From Elusimicrobiota bacterium (lineage in GTDB: Bacteria > Elusimicrobiota > Elusimicrobia > Elusimicrobiales > UBA9959), in assembly GCA_009773155.1 (NCBI GenBank), contig WOVA01000022.1:1-36534 (forward strand): DNA of 36,534 bases. The letters run 5' to 3'. Positions 12,557 through 30,857 of the stretch are shown here, in pieces. Positions within the stretch are counted from its first letter, which is position 1. Every line of letters starts with the position of its first letter. Both the position numbers and the translations under genes were made by a program. The notes under the pieces are model-generated. The model was not told the origin of the DNA. It saw only the letters and a program-made list of their open reading frames with translations, and ran no database searches.

Positions 12557-12570
12557 CATAAAAACAGAAT

Positions 12571-12601
12571 CCCTCTGACAGCAGCAAAGACTGTCAGAGG
12601 G
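12571..12601 (-). terminator. Rho-independent-like terminator after the HEAT-repeat gene
   Basis: Perfect 11-bp stem CCCTCTGACAG / CTGTCAGAGGG with a 9-base loop, 27 bases after the HEAT gene stop. On the minus strand it is followed by ATTCTGTTTTT. The 5' part of the stem and the 3' T-run suit termination of minus-strand transcripts. Confidence 0.7.
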
Positions 12602-12627
12602 AAATCCAACGAAGACCGATTTAAGTA

Positions 12628-13167: not shown

Positions 13168-14319
13168 TCATTGTCCGGTTTTCCTCTGAAGATCATACAA
13201 AGCTGAGCCGACAGCGTTGTGTCGGGGCGCCGGCGAAATTTTTTCCCAGCGGCTCTTGAACCACAGGGCGCACATCAGGTAGAGGAACTTGAAGTAGCGA
13301 TCCTCCCAGAGGTCCGGCAGAGATTCCGCCTTCCTGTACTGTGAACGGATAAAAGAGACGCTGGCGTCCAGTTTTTGATCAAAACCTTCAAAATCCCTGG
13401 CTTCGGCCTCGCCGTAGCCGCCGACATAGAAAAAATCCTTCCAGCCGGACTCCAGGTCGCCGGCTATGTTTTTCGCCAGCTCTTTCATCTGGGCGGGGTC
13501 CTCCAGCGCGAAAAGCGAGATAAGGTCCACATCCCTGGGGCGGCCGGCATAATCAGCGGCGTAAGAGGCCAGAGGACCGGCAAAAACGTCAGCCAGCCGG
13601 CGGGAATCCTCGTCGCCTAAAAAAACGGAAGAGCGCAGCAGAACCGAATTATAAATAAGCGCCAGCTGGCCGGCGTTAAGGCCGGGGCAGTCCGGAACGC
13701 CGAAAACAAAATCCTTGAATTCGGTCGCGGCGAAGTTATACTGATAACCGCCCTCGATGAAAGCCTCGCGCAGGTCTTCGCCGGGCCGGCCGGGCAGGGT
13801 CAGGAATTCTTTCCACAGCCGGAACTCCCCGCCGGACGGGAATTTCAGCTCATGCCTTCTAAGCGCGTTCAGGAGCGTCGCCCCGCGCTGGCCGCCGAAC
13901 GGGACAATTTCGCCGGAGGCCAGTTTTTTACGCAGAGAGCGGTATCCCGCAAGGCCCACATACCCGTCCATCGGAATATCGGGAACACGGCAGGCCAGGA
14001 AAGCTTCTACAGCGGGGGCATCAGCTACTGAGGTCATGAACTCTTTGATGGCGCTCTCCGGCGGGAGCGTCAATTGCGCTTCGCCGGGCAGGGCGCCGAG
14101 CGTACGCTCTACCCAGACACTGTACTCCCCCTCGAAATGCTGAGGCGCAAAGCAGAGCTCGAATAAAGGCTCCAGGGCGCATATAAAAAAAGCCAGCCTC
14201 TCATAGGAATAACCTTCGGGCGGACGGAAACGCCTGTTCTTCAGGTAAAACCTGGCGTTATTGACCGTGCGCCCGTGGAGTTTGTCCCAGGGTATGCCGT
14301 TGATAATTATCGCGCTCAT
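13168..14319 (-). CDS. Unknown protein, fifth gene of the MoxR/VWA-AddAB-like operon (383 aa)
   Basis: I do not recognise a family. The protein is soluble, mixed alpha/beta, rich in aromatic residues, with no signal peptide, membrane helix or obvious nucleotide-binding loop. Segments WDKLHGRTVNNARFYLKNRR (residues 11-30) and the Trp/Tyr-rich YFKFLYLMCALWFKSRW near residues 343-359 stand out. The ATG overlaps the stop of the AddA-like gene (ATGA), so it is part of the same complex or pathway. Its last codons contain promoter-module copy 4, which encodes the tail residues PRHNAVGSA; the native C-terminus may therefore have been extended or rewritten by that module. Confidence 0.7.
   Translation of the reverse strand: MSAIIINGIPWDKLHGRTVNNARFYLKNRRFRPPEGYSYERLAFFICALEPLFELCFAPQHFEGEYSVWVERTLGALPGEAQLTLPPESAIKEFMTSVADAPAVEAFLACRVPDIPMDGYVGLAGYRSLRKKLASGEIVPFGGQRGATLLNALRRHELKFPSGGEFRLWKEFLTLPGRPGEDLREAFIEGGYQYNFAATEFKDFVFGVPDCPGLNAGQLALIYNSVLLRSSVFLGDEDSRRLADVFAGPLASYAADYAGRPRDVDLISLFALEDPAQMKELAKNIAGDLESGWKDFFYVGGYGEAEARDFEGFDQKLDASVSFIRSQYRKAESLPDLWEDRYFKFLYLMCALWFKSRWEKISPAPRHNAVGSALYDLQRKTGQ
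13192..13225 (-). promoter_or_regulatory. Palindrome/-10 promoter module, copy 4 (inside upstream coding end)
   Basis: Perfect arms at 13208-13225, inner CAACGC, 10-bp spacer, TATGAT at 13192-13197. The whole module lies within the last 20 codons of the 383-residue gene and points to the HEAT gene. Predicted +1 near 13185. Confidence 0.72.
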
Positions 14320-17300
14320 CCGGCCTTTATACCTATCACCGCGCCTTCTATGGCGCGCGCCCCTTTAAGACGGCCCAGCAGGAGGATATACCGCTCTTTC
14401 TGTTTTTCACCCAGAGCGGTTTGTCCCTCCGACGAACCGAAGATAGTCTTATATTCAAGGACCGTGACCTTGGACTGATCCACCAGCACGCCGTCCACGA
14501 TACCGTTCAACAGGCGTTTCCCGTCGGCGCTTTTGCCCCAGACCCGCAGTTCCGGAAGGTTTTTGGCGCCGTAACTGAAGAGCGGCTGAAGCAGCGCCTT
14601 GTTCTCCGGTCTCAGCAGGATATCAGCGGCCAGCCGTCCGGCCTCGTCCAGGGAGACCGCAGGGGAATTGCGCACGACCGCGTCGTAAGCGTCCGGCCCG
14701 GGGGCCCGGAGCATCAATTCCGCTATTATTTGATGCACCCTGACACCCACATACATATTCATCGAGCCGCCGCCGACCAGCCGGGCCGCGCCGGCGCTTA
14801 TCTGGGGCGCGGCCGTCAGTTCGCCGAGATCTTTTATGTCCGTGCGCACACCCACAAGGCGGAAGGCGCCGGGCAGTTCAAGCCCCTCTCTTTCCGACAG
14901 CGAACGCAGTTCCGGCCGGCCCCCGATCCAAGGTCCGGTTTTAAGCAATTTCATTGAAATCTGTCCGGGCTTGCAAAGTCCTTTGATCATCCCCAACAAT
15001 CTAGGGGGCTCGGACTTTGATTTTGCACCGGAGGCGGTCAAGAAGCCCGGAGGCGTCCCGTTGTCGAGTATCATCAGATGTTTTTTTGTGCGCGTAAGAG
15101 CGACATAAAAGAGATTGGCTTTCTCCGCCTTAACCCGCTTGTAAGTACTGTTATAGAGCCGGCCCAGCCCCGGGTAGCGGCGGCCGTTTTCCATGCTTGC
15201 AGCAGGCAAACCGCCCAGATAAGGGAAATAGTCGATTTCTATTTCCTGCTTAGGTCCGGCCACCTTTCTAAACTCCGCGTGAAAAAGATGGGCGAATTCC
15301 TCCGGCGACTCTTTGCCGTCGGGGGCCGCTTTAAGCGTCTTATTGGAGTCCAGTATCAGTATGACCTTATCGTAAGTCAGTCCCTTTGAGGAATGGATGG
15401 TCACGGCTTCCGCGAAACCGAGCTTGTCCATGTCCACATCATAGGAGAGGCAGGACTCATAAGGGATCTTGGAGGCGCCCAGCGACTTCAGGACATCATC
15501 TCCCCCCTCGTCCCTGACACCGGAGATCTCGTGAAGGTAGAGGCCGGCCAGCGCGTGATTGAGCGAGCGCGCCGTATTCTCCGGGGAGAGCAGCGACTCC
15601 CTCCTGAAAAATACAGGCCACAGACCGGGAGCCGCCCCGTCATCTTCTCCAGAGCCGGGGCCCTTCAGCAATGAATATATCTTCTCGGCGGTCGAGGTCT
15701 CGCCGGCGCCGTAATAAAGCGACTGTATCTCTCCGTATACGGCCGCCGCCGCTTTTACAAAGGCTTCAGGCGACGATACCGCCGCGTCATTTATGTGCCG
15801 CGGCCAGAGCCCCTTCGCCAGTTCAAGACCTTTGCGGCTCAGCAGCAGGGCCGCGGCCGCCTTATGCCTGTCGGCGGAGGCGAAGCACCAGGTCAGGGTT
15901 TTAAGCAGATAATAGTCCGGGTCTATGTCCCCTATCTCGTCCTCGGTAAATTCGCTGTCCGACTTTCTGTCCTCGTCCACCTGCTCAAAAGGTTCGGACA
16001 TCCTGTACTGCAGTTCGTCCTTGAGCATGAGCGAAAGCTTGGAGTTACGGAAGGCGCTCCTTGAGCGGAAGATGACACCCGTACGCCCCGGCGTGCGGTT
16101 GATGAAATCCTTGACGGCGTCTTTATCCGCGTAAATATCATTTCGCTTGCTGATTATGCCGTATTCGACCTCCAACGGCGCCGTAGACGGCATCCAGTTC
16201 TTTCCGGGAGCGTCCGGGGGGCGTGAGAGCCGGTCGTCCTTCGCCTTATAATCGAAGAAGCTCACCGTCTCTGCCTCGCCCTCGTCGCCCGCAAGCAGGA
16301 AATTGTAATCCTCAGCGACTTTTTCGATGAGCCCGTTTATAAAGTCCAGCGTATTGGGATTCTTTATACGGTAGGAATCCAGGAGAGAGGTCCTTTTCCC
16401 CTGTTTTTCCGCCTCTTCGCACATCTTCAGGAACTCCTCGGGGAAGGCGTTGCGCCAGCGGTAAACGGACTGCTTGGCGTCCCCGACCAGAGTAGTCTTT
16501 ACAACGCACTTGTCGGCCAGGAAATAGCCTATCAGGGCGTTCATAAGGATATCGCAATCCTGGGCCTCGTCTATAAAAAGCCGCTTGAATCCGAACCCTT
16601 CGTCCTCAAGTCGCCGCAGGAAAGCGGACATGCCTTCCTCTTTCTGCGCCTTCATATCGCGGAGCAGCTTGACCACCAGGAAGACAAGCGAGTCGAAGTC
16701 GAAGATCCCGCGGCTGTACATATACGGGATATAAGTATGCTTGCCGATATGCGAAATGATGTTTTCAAGCACCGGGCGGGTCGCTCGCAGCAGCGGCACC
16801 GCCTTCTCAAGCGCGGCCGCCAGTTTTTCAGGCTCCCTGGACTTATTGGCCAGCCTGGCCAGTATCAGTTCCCTGGCCAGGTCTTCAATATCGCCCGGGA
16901 CCGCGGCCGCGGCGGCGGCAGCGCCGGCCGGGTCCAGCACTTCACCCAGGAAGAAAACCTTCTGGCCGTGCTTTATAATGAAATCCCGCAGACTTTTCCG
17001 GTCGCCGAGCAGATACAGGACCTTCAGCAGATCATAGGCGGGGTCGCCCTCTTTAAGGTTGAGCGTCAGGGCCAGGCTGCCCAGGTCCCAGTGCGAACGG
17101 AAGAAATCGCTGACGCAATTCTCCCAGACGCTGGAATTCTCATCGGTCGGGAACCGCGCGTCAGCGGGCAGGCCCAGTTCATAACGGAAGATCCGGGCCA
17201 GCTCAAAACAGAAGGAATGTACCGTATAAACCCGGGCTTCCGAACCGCCTATCGCTTCGCCGAAAGTCGAGACCTCCTTCGGCGCCGTCTCCTTGTAGAG

Positions 17301-17462
17301 CCGGGCTTTGATCTCTTCGGCCGCGGCGTTGGAGAAACTCAGAAAAACGGTATCCTTAAGGCAGGAAAAATCCCCGCTGCCGCCGGCCGGCTCAAGGCCG
17401 AGCGATACTATCTGATGCGTCTTGCCGGTACCGGCGGAAGCCTGCAGTATACACTTAAGCAT
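14316..17462 (-). CDS. AddA/RecB-like UvrD helicase with C-terminal PD-(D/E)XK nuclease
   Basis: A superfamily 1A helicase of 1048 residues. Walker A ASAGTGKT is at 8-15, DEAQD (motif II) at 298-302, GDAKQSVYRWR (motif III) near 327, VTIHSSKGLTYDKV (motif V) near 687 and FYVALTRTKKHL (motif VI) near 785. The RecB-family nuclease at the end has His910 (GVRVHQ), Asp990 (GIVDGV), Glu1003-x-Lys1005 (EYK) and a KQKERY segment near 1020. Together these predict ATP-driven 3'-5' DNA unwinding with DNA cutting, as in AddAB/RecBCD end processing. It is shorter than classical AddA (about 1200 aa). The ATG overlaps the AddB-like stop by 8 bases and uses GGAGG inside it. Confidence 0.9.
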   Translation of the reverse strand: MLKCILQASAGTGKTHQIVSLGLEPAGGSGDFSCLKDTVFLSFSNAAAEEIKARLYKETAPKEVSTFGEAIGGSEARVYTVHSFCFELARIFRYELGLPADARFPTDENSSVWENCVSDFFRSHWDLGSLALTLNLKEGDPAYDLLKVLYLLGDRKSLRDFIIKHGQKVFFLGEVLDPAGAAAAAAAVPGDIEDLARELILARLANKSREPEKLAAALEKAVPLLRATRPVLENIISHIGKHTYIPYMYSRGIFDFDSLVFLVVKLLRDMKAQKEEGMSAFLRRLEDEGFGFKRLFIDEAQDCDILMNALIGYFLADKCVVKTTLVGDAKQSVYRWRNAFPEEFLKMCEEAEKQGKRTSLLDSYRIKNPNTLDFINGLIEKVAEDYNFLLAGDEGEAETVSFFDYKAKDDRLSRPPDAPGKNWMPSTAPLEVEYGIISKRNDIYADKDAVKDFINRTPGRTGVIFRSRSAFRNSKLSLMLKDELQYRMSEPFEQVDEDRKSDSEFTEDEIGDIDPDYYLLKTLTWCFASADRHKAAAALLLSRKGLELAKGLWPRHINDAAVSSPEAFVKAAAAVYGEIQSLYYGAGETSTAEKIYSLLKGPGSGEDDGAAPGLWPVFFRRESLLSPENTARSLNHALAGLYLHEISGVRDEGGDDVLKSLGASKIPYESCLSYDVDMDKLGFAEAVTIHSSKGLTYDKVILILDSNKTLKAAPDGKESPEEFAHLFHAEFRKVAGPKQEIEIDYFPYLGGLPAASMENGRRYPGLGRLYNSTYKRVKAEKANLFYVALTRTKKHLMILDNGTPPGFLTASGAKSKSEPPRLLGMIKGLCKPGQISMKLLKTGPWIGGRPELRSLSEREGLELPGAFRLVGVRTDIKDLGELTAAPQISAGAARLVGGGSMNMYVGVRVHQIIAELMLRAPGPDAYDAVVRNSPAVSLDEAGRLAADILLRPENKALLQPLFSYGAKNLPELRVWGKSADGKRLLNGIVDGVLVDQSKVTVLEYKTIFGSSEGQTALGEKQKERYILLLGRLKGARAIEGAVIGIKAG

Positions 17463-20400
17463 TGCCGCCTCCTTTAAGACCGCCCAGGCTTATGAACCGG
17501 CACAAGTGGGTATTACAGTAAGAACAGTCGGGATTATACAGGGGCTCCGGATCGCCGGCCTCTTTCCGCGCCGCCGGGGAATAGTCCCAGTCAAGAGCGC
17601 CTAATTCTCCATTCGCCAGGAAACTGATAAAAGTCCCGGACGCCTTTTTCAATTCGACGGCCATGCCGCCGATATTTCCGCTGTTTTCGATGAAAAGATC
17701 TTTTTCTTCAACAGGAGCGTCCTTTTTAGTTTTCTTCTTCTTAGTGACGGCGCCTGGATCTATATTAGAAACACCGTCGAGCATTATATTGGCGCCGCTT
17801 ATACTGCCCAGCTTGCATTCCGGTAGTCCGTACCGCGCCGGTTCACTTGAGAGCATCAGGGCGTAAGCCGCCAATTGCAGCGTCTCGCCTGATCCCTGAC
17901 TGAAAACGGCCCCTCTTCCCGACCAGGACAGTTTAGGGATTTTTTTACCCGTCTTATAATCCCAGACATGGAGCATTGAGCCGGCCTTGCCGCTGATATC
18001 CAGCCGGTCCAGCCTGCCGCTCAATATGATCTTCACGCTTTCAGCTCCGTCGCCCGGGCCCAGCGGTATGGAGCCCAGATCCATCTCGCATTTAAGCTCG
18101 TTTTTAACGCTTTTCAGCCCGGGAAGCTTCGCCTGCCTCGCTGCCTCGTTCTCGGCGAAAACCTGGAATACCCGCCGGCTCTCGGCCTTGAACTCTTCCA
18201 GCGGCAGGTCCTGGAAAGTTTCCGGGTCCCGGCCCGAAGCCGCAAGAAGGCCGTCGAAGGCCTTGCAGACCGCGGCAAAGATCTTCTTTTTGTCGCCGGA
18301 ATAAAAATCCGGATCGGCCCCCGCCTTCTCGTAAACGGAATGCCAGAAGGAGCCCTTGGTCAGCGGGATCTGCGACTCGTGGTCTTTTTCCTCCCGTATA
18401 CCGGCCGCCGTCATAAAGATATTCACTATAAACTTCCTCGGGCAGTTTATAAAACCCGCGAAATCCCGTACTCCTATCTTTATTTCCAGCGGCAGGCCGT
18501 CTTTTCCCATGGGCGGGGGGTCATAATCCCTGTACTTCTTCTCCCTGAGCCGCAGAAGGGTCAGCAACGACAATTCCCCGGCCTTGGCCTGAAGGTCCGG
18601 CGGAGGCGCCGCGGGGGCGCTTTCAGCAGAGGCGGGCGCGGCTGCCGCCGGGCCGGCCGAGACGGAATAGGCCGCGTCGGGCGTCCTGGCCCCCTCGCCT
18701 TCGAACATCAGCTCATGTGCGGCGTAAAGCGAAGGCATAGCCCCGCCCTTATTATCGTCCAGACCGTAGAATTTCTTGACGGCGCGCACCAGGTTGGACA
18801 TACCGGCCATATCGCCGCCGATATTGTTGTAGCCGTAGGTAAGTGTGACGGACAAGCCGCCGCTTCGGCCGGCGGCAGCCAGCGCCTCGAACTTGCGGTA
18901 TATCTCCGCGCGCAGGCGCTCGGGATAAGTCACGGGCCTGCCGGCGGCGTCCGTAGCGGTAAGGCCTATGGCCGCGGCCAGTTTCTCCGGCACGGGCATT
19001 TTCTTGAGTTTGTCCGCCTCGCCGGTAAGGCCGCAGGCTATTATGTGGGCAGCCGAAGTGTTAAGCATGCGCTCAGGCGCCAGCACGGGCACTTTATAGG
19101 TCTCCCGTCTCTCTTCGCCAAGGGGATAATATTCGGTCTCGGCCATAAGGCTGAGCAGCGAAGAAGCCATAAGGGCAGGGTCCCGGTCCTCCTTCCGGCA
19201 GGCCTTCAGTGCCCTGTCGGCCCGCAGCGCCAGCCGCCCCATCGTCTTAACAAGTCCGGTCTCGCGGCACTCTTTCATCTCAAGTGAGACTGCCAGAAGG
19301 TCGGAGAAACCGCTGTCCCCGCCCAAATCGGGCAGCGCGGCCAGATTTTTCAGCTTCTTCCGCTCTTCCTCCGTCATAACTCCCGTGACTTCAGGATTTT
19401 CAAGGACTTTCCCTATCCAATGGACAGGCGACGGATTATCACGGTTTACGCTGGCCTTGTAGCCGGCCTCGAGTATAAGCTGGCGCACGGTGCGCCGGTC
19501 CCTGGAGCCGGGGATGATGATTTCCTGGTTCAGCCTGCCAGCCGAAAGCCTGAAAGCCGATACCGGCGAACTGAAAAGCTCCAGGTAATCCTCCGCCCTG
19601 GGCTCGAGGCCCAGGCTTATGCGCACCGCCGAGGCGTAAACCCGGAAGATACGCGAACCGCCGGCCGGTTCCGGCGCGGCCGCCTGCAGGCCGTAGCGGG
19701 TAAAGACCAGCGGCAGCACCGAAGCGGTCTCGCGCGAGAAACAGGCCACGGAGATCTCCCCCTCGGCCGCCGTCTTTTCGGAGAGCAGTTTCTTTATCTT
19801 CCAGCCGACATATTCCGCCTCGTCCAGACTGGTGATAAAGCCTTTAAGGTCCAGCCCGCCTTTGACCTCCGGCCTGAGGTCAGCGGAAGAAGTGAAGACC
19901 ACCGTATAACCGGCCGCCTTCAGCTTATCGGCCAGCGTCTGGAACAGCGGCTCCATGTCGGCCGCGTCCTCTACGGCTATGACGCGGGTCCCGTTGAACT
20001 CATCCGGTGAAACTTTAAGGGTCTCGGGCCGCTCCAAGGCCGACAGGAGCTCCTTATACGCCTCCAGAGGGCTGAAGAAGCAGGCCTCCTTGCGCTCGGC
20101 CGCGAAGGCGGCCACACGCTCATTGTAGAGGTCCAGCGCGGCGAAGATCTTTTTATAAATAAAATCGTCGAACCCTTCTTTCTTGCGCGCCTCGTCCAGC
20201 GCGGCCAGCTTTTCCTCTTCCGTAGCCAGGGCGATGAATTTCTTGAAGTCGGAAGCCAGGTTGCGAATCTTATGCTTCTCCTCGGGATAAGACCCGGGAT
20301 CAGAATAAGCCCCTATCTCGCTCAAGCCCCAGAGTATCTCGTAGAGCAGAAAGTCCAGGCCTTCGTCCGTATAAAGCGCCAGGTTCTCGCGCGGATAGTT

Positions 20401-20643
20401 GCCGTAGAGCAGCTCCCCCGCGAGATAGAAGAAGCCGGTCTTGTAGGTCTGCACATCCGGGGGCAGTATGGATTCTTTGCCCGAAGCGGCGGCGGCAGTT
20501 TCCCTGGCAAGGCAGAGCTCGGCCTGGGCGCGCCTGCCCTGGCTGTTCACCAGGTAAAGTACGCCGGAATAATCGTTCTGCAGGCTCGCCGGCGTGCCGG
20601 GAGCTTTTTTAGCCAGGTCATCGAACAGTTTTATATATTCCAT
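17455..20643 (-). CDS. AddB-like protein: inactive helicase fold, PD-(D/E)XK nuclease and Fe-S cysteines
   Basis: 1062 residues. No Walker A is seen near the N-terminus, so the helicase-like half is probably structural. A Pro/Ala-rich linker lies near 663-685. The C-terminal third is an AddB-type nuclease: Cys734 (INCPRKF), His768 (SFWHSVY), Asp879 (GRLDRLD), Asp895-x-Lys897 (WDYK), Gln923 (LQLAAY), and a final C-x2-C-x4-C group (Cys1040, 1043, 1048). In AddB one early and three late cysteines hold a 4Fe-4S cluster, and the same layout is present here. An insertion rich in Lys (near 968-975) precedes the last cysteines. It should pair with the AddA-like protein; the start is one base after the MoxR stop. 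Confidence 0.87.
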   Translation of the reverse strand: MEYIKLFDDLAKKAPGTPASLQNDYSGVLYLVNSQGRRAQAELCLARETAAAASGKESILPPDVQTYKTGFFYLAGELLYGNYPRENLALYTDEGLDFLLYEILWGLSEIGAYSDPGSYPEEKHKIRNLASDFKKFIALATEEEKLAALDEARKKEGFDDFIYKKIFAALDLYNERVAAFAAERKEACFFSPLEAYKELLSALERPETLKVSPDEFNGTRVIAVEDAADMEPLFQTLADKLKAAGYTVVFTSSADLRPEVKGGLDLKGFITSLDEAEYVGWKIKKLLSEKTAAEGEISVACFSRETASVLPLVFTRYGLQAAAPEPAGGSRIFRVYASAVRISLGLEPRAEDYLELFSSPVSAFRLSAGRLNQEIIIPGSRDRRTVRQLILEAGYKASVNRDNPSPVHWIGKVLENPEVTGVMTEEERKKLKNLAALPDLGGDSGFSDLLAVSLEMKECRETGLVKTMGRLALRADRALKACRKEDRDPALMASSLLSLMAETEYYPLGEERRETYKVPVLAPERMLNTSAAHIIACGLTGEADKLKKMPVPEKLAAAIGLTATDAAGRPVTYPERLRAEIYRKFEALAAAGRSGGLSVTLTYGYNNIGGDMAGMSNLVRAVKKFYGLDDNKGGAMPSLYAAHELMFEGEGARTPDAAYSVSAGPAAAAPASAESAPAAPPPDLQAKAGELSLLTLLRLREKKYRDYDPPPMGKDGLPLEIKIGVRDFAGFINCPRKFIVNIFMTAAGIREEKDHESQIPLTKGSFWHSVYEKAGADPDFYSGDKKKIFAAVCKAFDGLLAASGRDPETFQDLPLEEFKAESRRVFQVFAENEAARQAKLPGLKSVKNELKCEMDLGSIPLGPGDGAESVKIILSGRLDRLDISGKAGSMLHVWDYKTGKKIPKLSWSGRGAVFSQGSGETLQLAAYALMLSSEPARYGLPECKLGSISGANIMLDGVSNIDPGAVTKKKKTKKDAPVEEKDLFIENSGNIGGMAVELKKASGTFISFLANGELGALDWDYSPAARKEAGDPEPLYNPDCSYCNTHLCRFISLGGLKGGGNA

Positions 20644-20644
20644 A

Positions 20645-21769
20645 TCATCCCGCCGTTATCTGCTTAATAATTTCCGCCGCCTCTGTCTGCCCCGCTGCCA
20701 GCAGGGCCGCGGCCAGCCTGTCCAGCCGCTTGCCCTGCAGTCCGCTCAGATAAGCGGCCGGCAGCCTGAGAGCCGAAACTATGGCCGCCAGATTCTCCTG
20801 ATTGAGCTGATAGCCCTTCTGCAGGCCGTTCTCCACCCGCAGCAGGCCGGCGGGCACCTCCGGCGCGTCGGCGGGGCTGGGATCGTCCGCTATGCGCTTT
20901 ATCACGCTCAGCGCCTGATAGAAAGCGTCCTCAGCGGTCAGTGAATCGCCGGTATAGTAATGAAAGAATTCCACGCCGCGCCTGGCCCCGATAGTGCCCT
21001 TGGCCAGGGTCTCCACCATGCGCCGCTTCTCTTTCTTGTCCACGCCGGCGAGCTTCTCCAGCGTATAAAGCATATCGGAAAGGCGCTCCCAGCCGCGCGG
21101 CGTGGGCGCCTGCTTCTCGCCGTTGCGGAAAGCGTTAAAATCCACCAGCTTCTCTTCCGAGTCCATAAAAGATATGACCTTGGGGTGCAGTTTCTTCCCC
21201 CTCGCCCAGTCCAGCCACTGCTTGAGGTCGGTGACCAGCCGCACCTGCACCATGCGGGTCTTAACCGCCATAGAAAGCTCCTCCACCTGCGTGCCGTCCT
21301 CTTCAGGACCCAGGTTGCCGGCTGCCAGTATAATTGTCCGCGACCCCAGGTCGGCCGCGTCCGAAAAGGTCTCGCTGTCGGCCTTTTTCTCCAGGATGAC
21401 GTCCAGCGCCGCGTTTAGAACCTGCGGCATGGCCGTATTGAGCTCGTCGAAGAAGATGACCAGCCGCGAGCGCGTCGTCTTCTTGAAAAGCGAGATGGGC
21501 AGGAACTCCGTGTATTTCTGGTCGGCCCCCTGTTTGGGGAGACCGGACCAGTCGGTGGTGTCCATGCGCGAGAGATGCTTGACCCGCACCTCGTAATTGC
21601 GCCGCGGGTCCTCGGCGAACTCCTTTAGTATGGTGGTCTTCCCCACGCCGGGAGGGCCGTAGACCATCAGCGCCGGCGGATTGTCCATCGCCTCAAAAAG
21701 ACAGAGCAGCCGCTTGAGATCCTCGGGCGTAACCTCGGGAAGATGATCGTTAAACCTGTCAGGGCTCAT
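20645..21769 (-). CDS. MoxR-family AAA+ ATPase
   Basis: 374 residues with Walker A YGPPGVGKTT at 37-46, Walker B VIFFDEL at 104-110 and the MoxR-like sensor region (ILAAGNLGPEEDG, then MAVKTRMVQVRL). MoxR ATPases act as chaperones that remodel or load partners and are nearly always paired with a VWA protein, here encoded directly upstream with a 4-base ATGA overlap. The C-terminal 150 residues are helical. It is followed one base later by the AddB-like gene. The AAA+ domain may load or regulate the helicase-nuclease; that is inferred from the operon. All core ATPase residues are present. Confidence 0.9.
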   Translation of the reverse strand: MSPDRFNDHLPEVTPEDLKRLLCLFEAMDNPPALMVYGPPGVGKTTILKEFAEDPRRNYEVRVKHLSRMDTTDWSGLPKQGADQKYTEFLPISLFKKTTRSRLVIFFDELNTAMPQVLNAALDVILEKKADSETFSDAADLGSRTIILAAGNLGPEEDGTQVEELSMAVKTRMVQVRLVTDLKQWLDWARGKKLHPKVISFMDSEEKLVDFNAFRNGEKQAPTPRGWERLSDMLYTLEKLAGVDKKEKRRMVETLAKGTIGARRGVEFFHYYTGDSLTAEDAFYQALSVIKRIADDPSPADAPEVPAGLLRVENGLQKGYQLNQENLAAIVSALRLPAAYLSGLQGKRLDRLAAALLAAGQTEAAEIIKQITAG

Positions 21770-23247
21770 TTGCTGTCTCCTTGGGTGTAATAAGGATAAT
21801 TGGCTCCGTAATCGTCAGGGAAAACATTGCAGATGACGCCGCGCGGCGGCCGGGCGAAAGGCGCGCCCCGGCCCGTATAAAGCCAGATAAGCCGGCTGTG
21901 GAAAGGCGAGTACTTGGCCGCCGAGAGAAAGTCCTGCCGGGCGTCCAGGTCGGTCAGGAACAGCACCAGATCGGGCAGCGCCTGGCCGGAACCGGCGTTC
22001 TCTTTCCAGCGCTTCAGGGTCCAGTCGAAAGCGGCCCTATAATCGGTGCCGCCGCGGCCGCTTAATTTGCTGCCTTCGGCCAGCTCCCGCAGCGCCGCGG
22101 GGCTGTCTATGCCCTTTATGCCCCGCACATCGGTATCGGCCTCCAGCTGGAAGAACCGCGAGAAAGCCGCGCCCTGCATCTTGGTAAGCTGGCTGAAGGC
22201 GAAATAAAGCTCCTTTACCAGCCCGGAGAACTCCTTCTGCAGGTAATCCTTCATGCTGCCGGAGGTGTCCACGATAAACAGGACCTCGCCCGGCTGCTTC
22301 TTATAGATAACCCCGGGCCTGCGGCCGGGCTGCTTGCGGCCGGGCTTCTTCCAGGTATGAGTTTTCTGCTTCAGGCTTATCCGGCGCAGGTAGCGCTTGA
22401 GTATCTGCAGCAGATTATATCGCCTGGCCTCGCCGGTCTTCTGGGCGATGATATCCCCCAGTTCGGGCTCCACCATCGGGCCGGCCTGCTCCGCCTTCTC
22501 ATTGCGCTTGCGGGCCAGGTTCTCCAGTTTGTCGAAAAGGTCCTCCGCGGGCGCTTTAGGCGGGGACTTGGCCCTGGACAGGGGGTCAAAATCCGGCTCA
22601 TTGCGGTGATCGTCCACCCGCTGGCTGTCCTCCGCCGAGACATCCATCTCCAGCAGGTTGAAATAGACCACCAGGTCGCGCGCCCAGAGCCCGCCTATGT
22701 GGACTTCCCCCTCAGCCGGGGCGTCCACGGCTATCTTCTGCAGATAATCGCCCTTTCCCGCCTTGTCGATAAGGCCGTTGATACGCTCCGTCATCGACTT
22801 CCAGTTGCGCCAGCCCGGGTAGCGCGAGTGGATGAGATTGTCTATCACCATGTCCTGCGCCACATTCCACCTGGCATTCTCCGCGGCGCCGCGCGGCTGG
22901 GTGAAATGCCTCAGTTCGACATGCAGCACCTCGTGCCAGAGCAGACAGCCCAGTGTTTCGTAGAACAGCGCCGGGCTCCAGTCGCCGTTTTGGGCGCCCT
23001 TGTAAAGGGAGGTCAGGCGGTCGGGGTTAATGAATATTACAGGCCTGCCGTCCGGCAGGCCGATGGCCGCCAGGTTGCATTTCTCGTCATACTGCAACCC
23101 GCTCAGCTTAAGGAAATCCTCTACAAAAGGGAAGCGCGTGTGCAGGAAGTCCGCAAAGTCCCCGTCCTTCCTGAAATCATAGCGCTCCGCCGCGGGGTAT
23201 TTCCCCGTGAAGGCGAAAGCTTTCTGTATCAGTTCGTCACTGGTCAC
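21766..23247 (-). CDS. COG3864/DUF2201-type metallopeptidase-VWA protein
   Basis: The N-terminal half has a zincin-like HEVLH motif at 105-109 with His114 and an NVAQDMVIDNLI helix typical of COG3864. The middle (about 205-265) is charged and low-complexity. The C-terminal half is a VWA-like domain with MIDAS residues DTSGSM (327-332), Thr401 (GGTDY) and Asp433 (LTDLD). These proteins partner MoxR ATPases. The start is a GTG with GGGGGGATT upstream. It is the first gene of the five-gene operon, driven by promoter-module copy 5 with a 32-base leader. It could be the sensor or protease arm of the system; both metal sites look intact. Confidence 0.88.
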   Translation of the reverse strand: MTSDELIQKAFAFTGKYPAAERYDFRKDGDFADFLHTRFPFVEDFLKLSGLQYDEKCNLAAIGLPDGRPVIFINPDRLTSLYKGAQNGDWSPALFYETLGCLLWHEVLHVELRHFTQPRGAAENARWNVAQDMVIDNLIHSRYPGWRNWKSMTERINGLIDKAGKGDYLQKIAVDAPAEGEVHIGGLWARDLVVYFNLLEMDVSAEDSQRVDDHRNEPDFDPLSRAKSPPKAPAEDLFDKLENLARKRNEKAEQAGPMVEPELGDIIAQKTGEARRYNLLQILKRYLRRISLKQKTHTWKKPGRKQPGRRPGVIYKKQPGEVLFIVDTSGSMKDYLQKEFSGLVKELYFAFSQLTKMQGAAFSRFFQLEADTDVRGIKGIDSPAALRELAEGSKLSGRGGTDYRAAFDWTLKRWKENAGSGQALPDLVLFLTDLDARQDFLSAAKYSPFHSRLIWLYTGRGAPFARPPRGVICNVFPDDYGANYPYYTQGDSK

Positions 23248-23285: not shown

Positions 23286-23319
23286 ATCTTAAAAACCCGG
23301 GCCGACAGCGTTGTGTCGG
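23286..23319 (-). promoter_or_regulatory. Palindrome/-10 promoter module, copy 5
   Basis: Perfect arms at 23302-23319, inner CAACGC, 10-bp spacer, TAAGAT at 23286-23291. It points to the five-gene VWA-MoxR-AddB-AddA operon. Predicted +1 near 23279, 32 bases before the GTG. Confidence 0.78.
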
Positions 23320-23381: not shown

Positions 23382-24953
23382 TCATGAAAAATAGCGGTTA
23401 ATCTCGGATATCCGGCTATTCGCGGTTTTAAGAGCCGCAAAATCCTGAAGATCGCGCAGCCGGGTACGCTTGAAAGCCCTTATACCGTCAAGCCGTTCCC
23501 AAATCTTCTCCATATCCGGGGCTGAAATCGGGCTTTTGATTATTTTAAAAGCCATATCCGGGTCGCTTCTGCCTAAGACCGCCAGTTTGCCCTCAAAAGA
23601 CATACGGTATATCTTCCGTATGACATCCCGGTCCGTCTCCCCCGATTCATCGGCGCTGTCCTGTATCATGACCGAATTGCCTTCCGTCACATATTTCCCG
23701 CGGAGCTTCCCGGGGGCGTCTATATCTATGGATGTCATGACTTCGCCGATAATTTCGAGGTAGCCCAGACTCACGAGTTCACGCTCAAGGACGCTGTTCA
23801 GGTTGGAGTCGTCGCCGAATTTCGGCAGCCGTTTTATCCCGTGCTTATTAAATGTCGTGAGCATGGTCCCGATTTTTTCCGAAAGCTTATCTCCGTCCGG
23901 GAAGGTCTCGTTTATGAACCGCTCCTGTATCCCCATATCCGCTTTAAGCATATAGAGCGCGCAGACGGCTGGCAACCCGTCCCGCCCGGCCCGCCCGATT
24001 TCCTGCACATACTGGTCAAAAGAAGCCGGGATGCGGTAATGAACGACATAGCGTATGCCCGGAATATTAATACCCAGGCCAAAAGCGTTGGTGCAGAACA
24101 GGATTTCTATCTCTCCGCGCTTAAACTGTTCAAGTATGCGGCTTTTGTCGCCTGTCTTTCTGGCCGAATGAAAAAAATCGGCGGCGTAACCGAGCCTCTG
24201 ATATTTAGTAGCGAGCTTTTCGGCGGTCTCAATGCCGGTGGTATAAACCAGGCCCGGCCCCCGGTTCTCTTTTATAAAAAGCTGAAGGGCTCCGTCTTTA
24301 GCGTCTTTTGAGTCAAAATGCTGAACCCGTATGTCCAGATTATCGCGATGGGTCTTAAATCCGTGAAAAAGGTTCTTCTTCGATATTCCGAAAGCCTCCA
24401 TTATTTCTTCACGGGTTTTTGGGGAAGCAGTGGCGGTCTGGGCAAGAACAACCACGCCGGGGAGTTTCTTTATAAAACTATTAATCATCAGATAATCCGG
24501 CCTGAAGTCATGCCCCCAGTCGGTTACGCAATGGGCTTCGTCCACAACTATAAGCGCGGGCTTTTTCTTTGCGAATTCAAGCACCCCCATAAGGAACATA
24601 TCATCGGAGAGCCTTTCCGGAGACACATAGAGGATGTCAGTCTTCCCATCGATATAATTCCGCAGGGCCTGGCGCCGCCTTTCCGCGCTTTGCGCGCTGT
24701 TTATGCAGTCCGTCCTAAGCTTTGCCGCGTCGGCGGACCGCACCTGGTCCATCATCAGCGCGACCAGCGGGGAAATAACAATGGCGGGCTTCATCCCCAG
24801 ATGAACCGGCAGCTGAAAGCAAAGCGTCTTGCCGTATCCCGTAGGCATTATCGACAGCGTGCTTTCTCCCGCCAGCAGCGAACGCACGACCTCCTCCTGC
24901 CCCTTGCGGAAAGAGGTTATATGAGGGCAAAGGGAACACAATTCTTTCAGCAT
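23382..24953 (-). CDS. RecQ-like DEAH-box helicase without the RQC zinc cysteines
   Basis: I start at ATG 24953 because the RecQ fold begins there (LCPHITSFRKGQEEVVRSLL); open frame upstream belongs to the previous gene region. Motifs: PTGYGKT (37-43), DEAH (138-141) followed by the RecQ-specific CVTDWGHDFRPDY, LAQTATAS, and QEIGRAGRDG. Thus a 3'-5' superfamily 2 helicase of 523 residues. After the helicase core the usual four RQC cysteines and HRDC domain are not seen; instead there is a helical region with a winged-helix-like LPKFGDDSNLNSVLERELVS segment. It lies 7 bp after the preceding gene, probably co-translated. Confidence 0.88.
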   Translation of the reverse strand: MLKELCSLCPHITSFRKGQEEVVRSLLAGESTLSIMPTGYGKTLCFQLPVHLGMKPAIVISPLVALMMDQVRSADAAKLRTDCINSAQSAERRRQALRNYIDGKTDILYVSPERLSDDMFLMGVLEFAKKKPALIVVDEAHCVTDWGHDFRPDYLMINSFIKKLPGVVVLAQTATASPKTREEIMEAFGISKKNLFHGFKTHRDNLDIRVQHFDSKDAKDGALQLFIKENRGPGLVYTTGIETAEKLATKYQRLGYAADFFHSARKTGDKSRILEQFKRGEIEILFCTNAFGLGINIPGIRYVVHYRIPASFDQYVQEIGRAGRDGLPAVCALYMLKADMGIQERFINETFPDGDKLSEKIGTMLTTFNKHGIKRLPKFGDDSNLNSVLERELVSLGYLEIIGEVMTSIDIDAPGKLRGKYVTEGNSVMIQDSADESGETDRDVIRKIYRMSFEGKLAVLGRSDPDMAFKIIKSPISAPDMEKIWERLDGIRAFKRTRLRDLQDFAALKTANSRISEINRYFS

Positions 24954-24960
24954 AAGATCA

Positions 24961-25650
24961 TCAGTAGTAGTATTCCCTGTCGTTGTAGTAAAACTTGAGC
25001 AGCTCCTGGCAACGCGGCGTTTCATATTCGCACTGGTAATACCGGTCAAGGTAGTAATACTTAAACCTGTCGTTAAGCTTGAGTTTTTTACCAGTGCACC
25101 ATTTCTTGAAATGCGCGTATACCTCATCGCAATAAGAGATAAACTGCGAATATGGCATATGGCTGAGGACATCCTCAGGAACCCCGGTCATATCCATGCT
25201 CAGCATAAGCCCCCAGGAGCTCCGCTTGTTTTTTATGGGATATCCGGAAATAAAATATTTATGGAGAAGCTCGGTCAGTATGGAAGGTCCCAGCTTTTCC
25301 AGGATCCGGCCTTCGGTCAGCACTTCATCCGGGCCCATCTTACCTGATTCGGCGGCCTCGACCATGGCTTTTATCTTCCCGAAAATTTTGTCCGGGTCTT
25401 CTCCTTTTATTTTCCTGGGCAGCGAAGTGTGCTTAGCCTCGGATATGGCCCAATTCTCCTTTAGCAGATACCGGTCCCGGAAATAAGAGGCGTCGCGGAG
25501 CCCTTTAAGAACGTCCGAATAGCCTTTTTTAAGCGATTTCTGCATATCCATTATTTCGGCGTCCCACTCCCTGATTTCCGCCTGTGAGCAATCGCCGAAG
25601 TGCTCCTCAAACCGTTCGAACAGATTTTTTCTTATCTCATCAGCGTCCAT
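24961..25650 (-). CDS. Unknown protein coupled to the RecQ-like helicase (229 aa)
   Basis: I use ATG 25650 (MDADEIRKNLF), with GAGGAGGAG upstream. The same frame stays open to 25833 and reads plausibly (EKDTEKLKGYFRAIKAFSVPISEKEEES), so the site may just be three Glu codons and the gene may be longer, with its original start lost or overlapping the zinc-finger gene. The protein is helical and charged, with a very Tyr-rich C-terminus (KYYYLDRYYQ, ending YNDREYYY). No family is recognised. Its end lies 7 bp before the RecQ-like start, so a helicase partner role is inferred. Confidence 0.6.
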   Translation of the reverse strand: MDADEIRKNLFERFEEHFGDCSQAEIREWDAEIMDMQKSLKKGYSDVLKGLRDASYFRDRYLLKENWAISEAKHTSLPRKIKGEDPDKIFGKIKAMVEAAESGKMGPDEVLTEGRILEKLGPSILTELLHKYFISGYPIKNKRSSWGLMLSMDMTGVPEDVLSHMPYSQFISYCDEVYAHFKKWCTGKKLKLNDRFKYYYLDRYYQCEYETPRCQELLKFYYNDREYYY

Positions 25651-25757
25651 ACCCGACTCCTCCTCTTTTTCCGATATCGGCACTGAAAAAGCTTTTATGG
25701 CCCGGAAATAGCCTTTTAGTTTTTCCGTATCCTTTTCGCTTACTTCCAAAAGGGCGT

Positions 25758-25904
25758 TTATTGACCTTCTGGGTGTGCGATTGTATCCCACTCGGCTATT
25801 CGATCCTGATGTGCGCCGCGTATATGGACACAAAGGTTATAGGCCCTGCTAGCCACAACAGTTTCGCAGAACGGACATTCCCAGCCTTTTTCGTTTTGGC
25901 ACAT
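25758..25904 (-). CDS. 48-residue C2H2-type zinc-finger protein
   Basis: ATG 25904 is preceded by AGGAG at 7 bases. The 48-residue product has one classical-spaced finger: Cys10-x2-Cys13-x13-His27-x4-His32, with aromatic Tyr22 and Leu24 in the core positions (WECPFCETVV, RAYNLCVHIRGAH). The short tail is acidic. Prokaryotic single C2H2 fingers of the Ros/MucR type bind DNA; others bind protein. It lies between the methyltransferase and the RecQ-associated gene and overlaps the open frame upstream of the latter, so it may be a control protein of this cluster. Confidence 0.65.
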   Translation of the reverse strand: MCQNEKGWECPFCETVVASRAYNLCVHIRGAHQDRIAEWDTIAHPEGQ

Positions 25905-27590: not shown

Positions 27591-29711
27591 TTAAATTGTA
27601 GAACGCCCTCCCGACAGCGTTGCGTCGGCTATATTTTCAACTTTAAACAACCCCAGGCGCATCAGGAGCCGGTCGGGGAGGCGCTCGAGGCGGGTGTTGT
27701 AGGCGGTGGCGGCGTCGAGCCAGATCTTGCGGGCGCCTGCGACGCGGTCCTCGGTCTCGGTTATCTTGTCCATCAGGTCGGCGACCACGGCCTGGCCTCC
27801 CAGGTCCGGGTAATTCTCGCGCAGGACTGCGGCCGTCTTCCCCCCGGTCGCGCCCAGGGCCTTATAGCCACGCAGGCTGCCCACCAGCTCCTGCACCTGC
27901 TTTTCATAGGCCAGCGCGCCGCGGGCGGCGTCGGCCAGGGCGTCCACCAGGTCGTGGCGGCGCTTGAGCTGCATGTCGATGAGCTTCCAGACCTGCCGGA
28001 CGCGATTGCGCAGGTAGATGAGGCCGTTGAAGGCCATCCAGAACCAGAACAGGAAGAAGAGCAGGGCGTAGGCCAGGGCGCAGACCAGCGTGAAGCCGGC
28101 CAGGCCGGGCAGCTCCTCCAGAAAGAAGAGGCGGGCCACGGGGGCCGCCAGCACGGCCAGCAGGCTTATGGCAGATAGCCACTTGATGGACGAGGAGTGC
28201 GAAGCCTTCTGCGCCTCGGCGTCGCTCAATGAAAGCATGTAGAAGGGCACATCCGGATGGCTGGCTATCTTAAAAAGGGCGGCGGCGCTTTCGCCAAGGC
28301 CGCGCAGGCGGCGGCCCAATACCAGCAGGAAATCATCCTGCTCCGGGTAGGCCTGGCCGAATACCGTGGCGGGGGCGTTCAGCGGTATGACGCTTTCGCT
28401 GAAGGTGCGGCGGTGGAGGGTGTTGGACACCTCTGGGGCGTCGGTGAAACCGGAGTAGAGCGGATCGTCGGGGCCGCAACTGTGATGGAAAGAAGAGGCG
28501 GTGTCGTATTCGGCGCCGTCTATCTCCATATTCACCCGGCCGGTATCATCCTCCAGCCAGAACGGCACCCGGTCGCCGCCGGAAGCTATCACCGTGCTGC
28601 CGCTTTCCTTTTTCTCGCGGGTCTTCTTCTTGCCGTCGGTGTCGATAAATTCTTCGATTATCGTGCGCTCCCAGTCCTCGCGGACTGACCAACTGTAGAG
28701 GACGCAGCGCTCGCGGCCCAGAGGGCTGGTAAGCGGGCGCAGGGCGCCTATGGCCCCGCGGACATGCACCCATCCTATAAAGATGTCGCCTATCGGCACT
28801 TTCGGCACGTCGGTTATAAAGCGGCGGCGGCGCCAGGAGAACATCGCGCCGGAGAGCAGCAGGGCCGCCAGACCGAAGGCGGCCGCGTCGACGGCGATAT
28901 ACTGGTCCAGCAGTATGAATTTGACCCAGGGGAAGATGACGCCCAGGGCGAACATGGCGCGCATGGCCGGGCCGGGCTTTTGGGGCAGCATGGGGTAACT
29001 GCCGTCGCCCTTGAGCTGGCGCCAGGCGTCCATCAGGTCGCGGCGCGAAAGACGCGGCTTGACCTCCTCGCGCATTCGCGCGGCGTAGGCGCTGCCCCGC
29101 ACGGCCGAGACCGTGTACCAGTAATAAGCCATGTGATAGCCGTATTGGCCGGCCAGGTAGATGTCGCCCAGGGCTTCCGCGGCCGCGCCCACACCCTGCT
29201 GCACCGCCTTTGCCAGCCAGTACTCGGCCTTGTCGCGGTCGCTCTTTACCCCCTCGCCGTTGTAATAATCCACCCCGACGGCGTACATGGCGGGGCCGTA
29301 ATTGCGCTCGGCCAGGCTGAGGCGCATGGCGAAGGATCGTTTTTTGTCGATAGTCCTGCCGCCGTAGCCGTATTTGTAGCTGTAGGAGATCAGGTAGGCG
29401 GCCTTGAGGTCGCCCTGCCGTGCCAGCTTGGCGAGTTTTGGATAAGATGCGGCGAAAAGCCTGTGCGCGGTCTCTTGCTCGTCAGGATATTCGGAGGCGC
29501 GGACCAGGAGATGGCCGTACCAGAACTGGGCGAAGGGGTCGCCGGTAGAGGCCAGGCGCTGCATTTCCTTGAAGGCCTCCGGGTCGGATGAGCCGGTCTC
29601 GAAATAGACCTTGAAGGTGCGGTCGAAACCGTCTTTTTCCTCCGTCGCGGCGGCCGGAGACCACAGCAGAAGAAAAAAGAACAGCGGGATTTGTTTGATC
29701 GCGGCCGTCAT
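27591..29711 (-). CDS. Sel1-repeat / GIDE-like / LemA fusion membrane protein
   Basis: I start at ATG 29711, where a signal peptide begins (IPLFFFLLLWSPAAA); frame further upstream is not protein-like and runs past the divergent promoters. About residues 50-220 hold Sel1-type repeats (AQFWYGHLL, PAMYAVGVDYYNGEGV, AEALGDIYLAGQYG). Membrane helices lie near 245-300. About 310-500 resembles the GIDE domain (LTSPLGRERCVLYSWSVRE, TGRVNMEIDGAEYD). Two more membrane helices near 530-575 precede a LemA-like helical domain (RRHDLVDALADAARGALAYEKQ). GIDE and LemA domains are known to co-occur in envelope-stress proteins; the Sel1 fusion is unusual. The last codons overlap promoter-module copy 6. Confidence 0.82.
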   Translation of the reverse strand: MTAAIKQIPLFFFLLLWSPAAATEEKDGFDRTFKVYFETGSSDPEAFKEMQRLASTGDPFAQFWYGHLLVRASEYPDEQETAHRLFAASYPKLAKLARQGDLKAAYLISYSYKYGYGGRTIDKKRSFAMRLSLAERNYGPAMYAVGVDYYNGEGVKSDRDKAEYWLAKAVQQGVGAAAEALGDIYLAGQYGYHMAYYWYTVSAVRGSAYAARMREEVKPRLSRRDLMDAWRQLKGDGSYPMLPQKPGPAMRAMFALGVIFPWVKFILLDQYIAVDAAAFGLAALLLSGAMFSWRRRRFITDVPKVPIGDIFIGWVHVRGAIGALRPLTSPLGRERCVLYSWSVREDWERTIIEEFIDTDGKKKTREKKESGSTVIASGGDRVPFWLEDDTGRVNMEIDGAEYDTASSFHHSCGPDDPLYSGFTDAPEVSNTLHRRTFSESVIPLNAPATVFGQAYPEQDDFLLVLGRRLRGLGESAAALFKIASHPDVPFYMLSLSDAEAQKASHSSSIKWLSAISLLAVLAAPVARLFFLEELPGLAGFTLVCALAYALLFFLFWFWMAFNGLIYLRNRVRQVWKLIDMQLKRRHDLVDALADAARGALAYEKQVQELVGSLRGYKALGATGGKTAAVLRENYPDLGGQAVVADLMDKITETEDRVAGARKIWLDAATAYNTRLERLPDRLLMRLGLFKVENIADATLSGGRSTI
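27595..27628 (-). promoter_or_regulatory. Palindrome/-10 promoter module, copy 6 (inside upstream coding end)
   Basis: Palindrome 27611-27628 (one arm base changed, GCGTCGG on the plus strand), inner CAACGC, 10-bp spacer, TACAAT at 27595-27600. It lies within the last codons of the Sel1-GIDE-LemA gene. Predicted +1 is 27588, the first base of the repeat-protein ATG. Confidence 0.72.
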
Positions 29712-29722
29712 AGGGTGATTAT

Positions 29723-29756
29723 AGGATAGAACAGGGCGCCGACAGCGTTGTGTCGG
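29723..29756 (-). promoter_or_regulatory. Palindrome/-10 promoter module, copy 7
   Basis: Perfect arms at 29739-29756, inner CAACGC, 10-bp spacer, TATCCT at 29723-29728; an ideal TATAAT follows at 29718-29723. The predicted start is 5 bases before, or exactly at, the ATG of the Sel1-GIDE-LemA gene, so that message is leaderless or nearly so. Confidence 0.72.
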
Positions 29757-29782
29757 GCGGTTTTGGCCACGGGAAAAAGCCT

Positions 29783-29812
29783 TTGGCGCCGGCGGATAAA
29801 ATCCTATATAAT
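29783..29812 (+). promoter_or_regulatory. Sigma-70-like promoter of the WYL gene
   Basis: TTGGCG (29783-29788), 18 bp, TATAAT (29807-29812), upstream of the WYL ATG at 29859. No palindrome module faces this gene, unlike its neighbours on both sides. Confidence 0.6.
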
Positions 29813-29858
29813 GTAGTTCTTCCATTGATTTCACTTCAGGCGGCGGCAAGGGGGCGGC

Positions 29859-30857
29859 ATGGCGAAAAAAAAGGCTATTTTCGGCAAGAAATCCAAGGGC
29901 AACAAGACCCGCGAGCGGCGCTATGAGTCGCACAAGTCGCAGATCGTAAAGCTTTTCATCATTCTTTCGCAGCGCGGCTATGTGCGCGTGAAGGACCTGG
30001 AGCGGGAGCTGGAGATAGGCGAGCGCAGCGCGCAGCGGCTGGTGCGGCCGCTTAAGGTGCAGGGCATGCTGGTAGAGGACGAGACCGACCGCGGCCGGCT
30101 GAACTTCAACCGCGACCATTACAGCTTCGCCAAGACGCATGTCAGCGACCAGGACGCCAGCACGCTGGCCTTCCTCTACAAGTTCTCAAAAGTGTTCGGC
30201 GGGCAGATAAGCGAGTCGGTGCTTAAATCGATAGACAAGTTCTTCGTGGTGGAGGGCGAGGAATACCCGTATTTCGTGATAACCTCGCGCGTGAACCAGC
30301 CTAATACGCAGATGCCCTTTTACAGCGACCTCTACGCCTCCATACAGCAGAAGAACAAGATAATGCTGACCTATGACTCGGCCGGCGCCGAAAAGACGGT
30401 CAAGGCCTGGCCGATAGCCTTCCTAATGAGCGACGGCATGTGGTACCTGTGCTACCTGCTGGAGCCGGAGGGCTCCAAGAAGCAGGAGATACGCACCATC
30501 CGCTACGGCCACATCAAGGCCGTGAAGGCCCTGCCTGACGAGACTTTTGTAAAGCCCGACTGGGTCAAGCCGGCGCTTAAAGAGGCGCGCAATATCTGGT
30601 TCAACGGCAACCGCTGCCAGAAGGTGGTGCTGGAGGCGGATAACTGCATAAAGGACTACTTCAAGCTGAGCGAGTATTTCCCGCTGCAGAAGATCGTCTC
30701 CGAGGGGCCCAAGAGCTTCCGCATAGAATTGACCATCTGCCACCCGCTGGAAGTGGTCCCCAACATCATGCGGTTCATCCCTTATATAAGGGTGATCGGC
30801 CCGTCTTCGCTGCGCGGCGAGGTGCGCGACAGGGTAAAGCAGTGGCTGACTGACTGA
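29859..30857 (+). CDS. HTH-WYL domain transcriptional regulator
   Basis: A Lys/Arg-rich start (about 1-30) precedes a winged HTH (about 30-90: GYVRVKDLERELEIGERSAQRLVRPL) and a WYL domain (about 150-235) with the core residues in DGMWYLCYLLEP and IRTIRYGHIKAVK. The C-terminal WCX-like region is about 250-330. WYL regulators such as BrxR, CapW and DriD bind inverted repeats and respond to nucleic-acid or nucleotide ligands in DNA damage and phage defence. GGGGG lies 5 bases before the ATG. It has its own sigma-70-like promoter and a terminator, and sits between module copies 7 and 8, so it is a candidate regulator of those palindromes. Confidence 0.88.
   Translation: MAKKKAIFGKKSKGNKTRERRYESHKSQIVKLFIILSQRGYVRVKDLERELEIGERSAQRLVRPLKVQGMLVEDETDRGRLNFNRDHYSFAKTHVSDQDASTLAFLYKFSKVFGGQISESVLKSIDKFFVVEGEEYPYFVITSRVNQPNTQMPFYSDLYASIQQKNKIMLTYDSAGAEKTVKAWPIAFLMSDGMWYLCYLLEPEGSKKQEIRTIRYGHIKAVKALPDETFVKPDWVKPALKEARNIWFNGNRCQKVVLEADNCIKDYFKLSEYFPLQKIVSEGPKSFRIELTICHPLEVVPNIMRFIPYIRVIGPSSLRGEVRDRVKQWLTD

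Follow-up and report, generated by a model that had tools for sequence, protein, structure and literature searches.

The window, a 36,534-nucleotide (nt) stretch that makes up contig C47 of the 2.76-Mb metagenome-assembled genome (MAG) of an Elusimicrobiota bacterium, carries a 10-kb run of five minus-strand genes in which a VWA–zincin protein and a MoxR-type ATPase are joined to an AddAB-like pair and to a fifth protein. In gene order, these are:

21766..23247, minus strand: VWA–zincin protein (GTG start, 493 amino acids), with an N-terminal DUF2201-type zincin-like metallopeptidase domain and a C-terminal VWA domain with a metal-ion-dependent adhesion site (MIDAS)
20645..21769, minus strand: MoxR-type AAA+ ATPase (374 amino acids)
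17455..20643, minus strand: AddB-like subunit (1062 amino acids), with a PD-(D/E)XK nuclease, four iron–sulphur (Fe-S) cysteines and no Walker A motif
14316..17462, minus strand: AddA-like subunit (1048 amino acids), a superfamily 1 (SF1) UvrD/AddA helicase with a C-terminal RecB-type nuclease
13168..14319, minus strand: fifth protein, fold unassigned (383 amino acids), predicted to be mostly helical, with a conserved C-terminal DLWxDxxF

A reading made from the letters alone (hereafter the sequence-only reading) had described these genes as one tightly joined operon with intact active sites, and both descriptions were borne out. The VWA and MoxR genes overlap by 4 nt, MoxR and AddB are separated by 1 nt, AddB and AddA overlap by 8 nt, and AddA and the fifth gene overlap by 4 nt. 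A sequence check recovered all the motifs that had been named. The VWA protein has the zincin motif HEVLHVELRH and a MIDAS of the form DTSGS...TD, and the MoxR protein has GPPGVGKT and FFDELN. In AddA, SF1 helicase motifs I, II, III, V and VI are intact and the RecB-type nuclease site is present (D990, EYK1003-1005 and QKERY1021). AddB carries the nuclease motifs GRLDRLD, DYK895-897 and QLAAY together with Fe-S cysteines C734, C1040, C1043 and C1048, and these four cysteines are invariant in the five complete AddB proteins (5/5). By the motif check Walker A is absent from AddB in every member, and AddA is therefore the sole helicase motor.

Pfam recognises UvrD-helicase, PDDEXK_1, AAA and DUF2201_N domains in the operon, and the VWA half of the first protein (PF09967, VWA-like DUF2201) scores just under the Pfam cut-off. 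The fifth protein has no match in Pfam, PADLOC, NCBIfam, PHROGs or PDB sequences. Structure models of the fifth protein (predicted local distance difference test, pLDDT, 59; no Foldseek match below E 0.28) and of the VWA protein (pLDDT 48) were too poor for use.

The same gene set was found at five loci in two phyla, namely the window, G013, G316, G242 and a deltaproteobacterial MAG (G341), with a fragment in a further genome (G321). A profile made from the AddB proteins of the window and G013 matches four of the 341 genomes of the phylum, and a fifth-protein profile matches three of these four and no others among the 341; the fourth AddB-positive genome, G321, contributes only a 4.4-kb contig with AddB and AddA. 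G013 has MoxR, AddB, AddA and the fifth gene in the order of the window, its contig ending inside MoxR. In G316, the VWA and MoxR genes lie at one contig end and MoxR, AddB, AddA and the fifth gene at another, with MoxR split across the two contigs and the AddA reading frame interrupted. The deltaproteobacterial locus (VGSZ01000007.1) reproduces the exact window order from VWA to the fifth gene, with VWA cut by the contig end, whereas G242, which was revealed by a MoxR profile run over the phylum, has the rearranged order fifth gene, VWA, MoxR, AddB, AddA. The 8-nt AddB/AddA overlap is common to three of the five loci. Identity to the window proteins ranges from 13% (fifth protein of G242) to 56% (MoxR of G013), and local GC content from 28% to 75%. 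MoxR is the best-conserved protein of the set, also sharing 47% identity with its G341 counterpart, and the window VWA protein is 29-39% identical to its relatives (L051, L050 and L026). Because the same set recurs in such distant genomes, the five genes are one conserved module and not chance neighbours; the sequence-only reading had proposed them as one combination, and each indeed recurs with the others.

All four genomes with a MoxR of this subfamily (scoring above 200 bits) carry the module, and none of the four lower-scoring MoxR–VWA pairs inspected (G009, G019, G188 and G160) is accompanied by AddAB. The fifth protein was met only together with the module. Among the 195 genomes of the second phylum, G341 is the sole true case; weaker AddB matches there (L028-L034) were rejected as generic PD-(D/E)XK/AddB matches without MoxR. 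Overall, the module is rare, occurring in about 5 of the 341 genomes of the phylum (about 1.5%) and 1 of the 195 in the other. Our bacteria-wide genome scan used two short MoxR peptide patterns only, so that the spread beyond the sampled genomes may differ, and several of the module loci are cut by contig ends, none coming from a finished genome. AddB was searched for in viral, plasmid and phage sequences, and the fifth protein, VWA and MoxR in plasmid or viral sequences; nothing closely related was found, MoxR giving generic matches only.

The module is distinct from the AddAB of the host cell. The source genome has its own AddA on contig C62, beside a CcrM-like methylase and DnaE, and its own AddB on a different contig, C67; of the 25 genomes in the family, 24 have a housekeeping AddA, G013 among them. 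In a phylogenetic tree, the six module AddA proteins form one side of a branch with 100/100 support, apart from all housekeeping AddA proteins, although long branches leave the order within the module clade unsure. We therefore rejected the possibility that the module is itself the housekeeping AddAB. The sequence-only reading had asked whether such a separate copy exists, and would have given up its proposal had this been the only recombinase of the clade, with variable neighbours; given the separate AddA and AddB, that objection falls.

The borders of the operon are marked by a recurrent promoter module, which the sequence-only reading had rightly placed in front of the VWA gene. The relevant features are:

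23302..23319, minus strand: palindromic half of the promoter module (CCGACACAACGCTGTCGG), in front of the operon
23286..23291, minus strand: -10-like hexamer TAAGAT, 11 nt past the palindrome core, a spacing fixed in the 13 window copies
13208..13225, minus strand: second copy of the promoter module, within the 3' end of the fifth gene and before a HEAT-repeat gene
12570..12602, minus strand: strong terminator-like hairpin (13 pairs and a T tail), downstream of the HEAT-repeat gene
23382..24953, minus strand: RecQ/DpdF-like helicase gene, start probably the ATG at 24953

The element precedes the VWA start by 55 nt, in a 134-nt gap in which a plain sigma-70 scan found no site. Its pattern is CGACAnnACGnTGTCG, exactly 11 nt and TAnnnT, the palindrome standing where a -35 box would normally be. 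There are 13 copies in the window (at 4205, 10251, 11656, 13208, 23302, 27611, 29739, 30915, 34471, 34981, 35480, 36360 and 36395) against none in shuffled sequence, and they precede genes on both strands in matching orientation. The copy at 29739 falls inside the longest LemA/GIDE/Sel1 reading frame (27591-30140), so the true start of that gene is probably downstream of it. The promoter modules set off the five genes as one unit, apart from the RecQ-like gene upstream and the HEAT-repeat gene downstream, and the second copy suggests that the latter is a transcription unit of its own. Both flanking genes were considered as a sixth part and rejected: the RecQ-like gene is not adjacent to the module at other loci, and the HEAT-repeat gene, with its own promoter module, is not beside it elsewhere. 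The source genome has 12 exact copies of the CCGACA-N6-TGTCGG arms, 9 of them on the window contig. An island-specific regulon was nevertheless rejected, since the relatives G006, G011, G031 and G036 have about a dozen dispersed genome-wide and the gene adjoining the housekeeping AddA carries a variant. The element is thus a family-wide class of promoter or operator and is no proof of an island regulon.

One locus bears directly on what the module does. In G242, the AddA protein (L050:11190-13697) breaks off after helicase motif VI, and the frames that follow contain nothing resembling the missing part; AddB (L050:8429-11173) lacks the GRxDRxD and DYK residues while keeping the four Fe-S cysteines. 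Judged by these motifs, both nuclease activities are lost. The helicase motifs, the MoxR motifs, the zincin motif (HEMLHIVLKH) and a MIDAS (DVSAS) are all retained. At the other four of the five loci AddB is nuclease-competent, and the accompanying complete AddA copies retain their nuclease motifs. If the G242 locus is functional, the conserved output predicted from these motifs is not DNA cleavage. The G242 VWA protein also matches vWA-TerF-like. The stretch L050:13724-17014, which begins 26 nt past the module at this locus, encodes a DnaJ-type zinc-finger repeat protein and then a Ser/Thr kinase whose N-terminal zinc ribbon was recognised by eye.

The setting of the module differs between genomes. 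In G013, a gene with a CARF domain lies 29 nt past the fifth gene on the same strand and is followed by a type III-B operon (Cas6, Cas10/Cmr2, Cmr3, Cmr4, Cmr5 and Cmr6), with Cas1 and Cas4 farther along. Linkage to cas10 loci is not steady, being seen in G013 only (1/5 loci). At the type III-B locus on contig C27 of the same genome (L013/L016), an APE2256-type CARF domain is also present in fusion with a beta-CASP metallo-beta-lactamase. Around the module in the window lie, besides the RecQ/DpdF-like helicase gene, genes for an Mrr-type nuclease, a caspase-like protein, an XRE-M78 regulator and a methyltransferase that weakly resembles PADLOC families. Such surroundings suggest an island, although several of these may be ordinary genes. 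The XRE-M78 gene (2804-4048) encodes an M78 peptidase of the ImmA/IrrE type with a fused XRE helix-turn-helix (PADLOC: RmrA and capH/capP-like), has a promoter-module variant at 4205 and is a candidate stress-responsive regulator. The caspase-like (C14) protein (5903-8548) has Ig/TIG-like domains and adjoins DUF4384 and TPR genes. The RecQ/DpdF-like gene is preceded by a gene (24961-25833) whose product has no Pfam or PADLOC match; the two genes (23382-25833), lower in GC, may form a unit of their own.

Comparison with known systems shows where the module departs from each of them. Like AddAB (RexAB), it combines an AddA with SF1 helicase and RecB nuclease and an AddB with an inactive helicase part, a PD-(D/E)XK nuclease and a four-cysteine Fe-S site, and the best solved relative of its AddA is the AddA subunit 3u44. 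Unlike AddAB, its AddA scores 69.7 bits against the 707.65-bit cut-off of the addA_Gpos equivalog and belongs to a clade separate from the co-resident housekeeping copy; for the module AddB there is no match to a curated AddB model. MoxR, VWA–zincin and the fifth protein always accompany the pair where the contig allows, and one member has no nuclease. Gabija also uses a UvrD-family helicase, and GajB profiles match the module AddA weakly to moderately, but the module protein is AddA-type with its own nuclease and an AddB partner, and GajA (OLD/TOPRIM) was not found among the scanned window neighbours.

Other resemblances concern the MoxR–VWA half. In MoxR-vWA ternary conflict systems, peptidase effectors are carried on the vWA protein and a counter-invader role has been proposed (Kaur et al. 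2020, PMC7159879; PMC12839542). The module likewise has a MoxR AAA+ protein and a vWA protein with a MIDAS and a peptidase domain, but no VMAP, beta-propeller or iSTAND component was recognised in it, the family searches gave the fifth protein no match that would place it among such third components (FtsH-type ones included), and its partner is an AddAB-type pair, AddB being absent from both texts. The vWA-MoxR-VMAP systems, whose MoxR-vWA modules also neighbour type III CRISPR loci, are of VMAP type (Altae-Tran 2023, PMC10910872). TerY-P triad systems similarly attach a VWA-centred regulatory unit to DNA restriction and processing enzymes, but with kinase and phosphatase partners instead of MoxR (PMC11090510). 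In jumbo phages (group 2.2), MoxR is paired with a vWA protein that bears an N-terminal metallopeptidase, and a role in virion assembly has been proposed (PMC7824862); the two-gene architecture is the same, the window pair matching PHROG 1297 and 1314. The N4-like phage proteins LUZ7 gp24/gp25 show comparable motifs (GKS, HEIGHIVRLH and DLSGS), with no AddAB or fifth protein in the neighbourhood seen. The searched literature does not describe MoxR with AddA or AddB in one system and never names MoxR, VWA and AddA together; the sole paper naming MoxR and AddB applies the latter name to a separate, non-MoxR repeat-array system (PMC10910872). The five-gene combination is described in no family library or searched paper.

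The classic obstacle to linear DNA from outside is a helicase–nuclease of the RecBCD/AddAB type; MoxR-vWA modules have been predicted to act as switches in conflict systems, and few of their clients are established. Judged from its sequence, the module is most likely a defence system against invading DNA that has not yet been described. To the fuller proposal, a horizontally moving five-gene anti-invader module with a DNA-end translocase and a protein-acting MoxR/VWA–zincin arm, we give about an even chance; the defence role, the protease activity, the coupling of the two halves and the bridging role of the fifth protein are all what we infer. AddB, through its Fe-S domain, and the AddA helicase would load on free double-stranded DNA ends of linear phage or plasmid DNA, or of invader DNA broken during replication, and translocate; in most members the pair would also degrade both strands. 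Binding of AddAB to broken DNA needs the Fe-S cluster of AddB (Yeeles et al. 2009, as cited in PMC4824097). The VWA arm may dock on a client protein through its MIDAS, MoxR would remodel that client with ATP, and the zincin domain would cut it. The client could be a protein capping or blocking the DNA end; alternatively, it could come from the host or the phage and be cut after the translocating complex has signalled an invader. The helical fifth protein may be a dedicated bridge between the AddAB and MoxR/VWA halves. The motif pattern of G242 leads us to prefer AddAB-type end sensing coupled to a protein-acting MoxR/VWA–zincin arm. A stronger version, which would amount to a new kind of defence logic, is put forward only tentatively: the translocase would be a DNA-end sensor with an optional nuclease and would trigger or direct a VWA metalloprotease powered by MoxR, and the conserved output would be the cutting of proteins instead of DNA degradation. 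In one form of it, terminal or end-protecting proteins would be stripped from phage DNA.

Several points weigh against the defence proposal. MoxR/VWA pairs are often maturation chaperones, the evidence for protease activity of the VWA–zincin protein consists of motifs, and the nuclease-less case comes from a single MAG locus. The sequence-only reading had also named defence, beside regulated recombination, as a fitting role, and the sporadic distribution and the type III-B neighbour of G013 speak for it; yet an unmistakable defence neighbour is found at one of the five loci only, the stretches read in G316 and G341 show ordinary genes and no obvious defence neighbours, and the island around the window genes is suggested, not proven. 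With no plasmid or phage copies found, mobility is read from the sporadic distribution alone.

The main rival follows from what MoxR–VWA pairs do elsewhere, which is to remodel clients or load them with metal: such pairs are typically maturation factors (PMC13036017, PMC9976466), and NorQD remodels its client or loads metal into it (PMC13036017). On the pattern of NorQ/NorD, CbbQ/CbbO and RavA/ViaA, MoxR and VWA would then insert the Fe-S cofactor of AddB or assemble the complex, the zincin-like domain would be structural, and AddAB would be the sole effector, in simple exonuclease defence or in recombination. The retention of all four Fe-S cysteines in the nuclease-less G242 fits such maturation. 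However, the housekeeping AddB of the source genome also has a CxxC...C Fe-S motif with no MoxR/VWA helper adjacent, HExxHxxxxH is kept in every complete member, and G242 has no nuclease to mature, though its helicase could still need help; we regard this explanation as possible but somewhat improbable.

The sequence-only reading had instead proposed an AAA+/VWA switch that controls DNA-end degradation; MoxR/VWA would then open or close the AddAB nuclease, sparing the DNA of the host while foreign ends are degraded. The tight operon, the conserved co-occurrence and the nuclease-competent members speak for such a switch, but G242 has no nuclease active sites and yet retains MoxR, VWA and the fifth protein, so that at least there the arm is not solely a nuclease gate; the switch is not supported as stated and we think it unlikely. 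AddAB is classically a repair enzyme, and a metalloprotease linked to DNA ends would suit the repair of DNA–protein crosslinks. A specialised complex for repair or recombination, belonging to the host or to a mobile element and without an anti-invader role (one that removes proteins crosslinked to DNA ends in SPRTN-like fashion, for instance), is nonetheless slightly less likely still, given the very sporadic distribution, the type III-B CRISPR locus adjoining the module in one genome and the near-universal housekeeping AddA of the family. Chance or an annotation artefact has a negligible probability: each part is common alone, but synteny of the same set at five loci across 13-56% identity and 28-75% GC refutes unrelated neighbours.

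If the defence proposal is true, the module would bring a metalloprotease coupled to DNA-end processing into bacterial immunity. Its nuclease-less member also offers a handle on the clients of MoxR/VWA/metallopeptidase pairs, which are present too in N4-like and jumbo phages.

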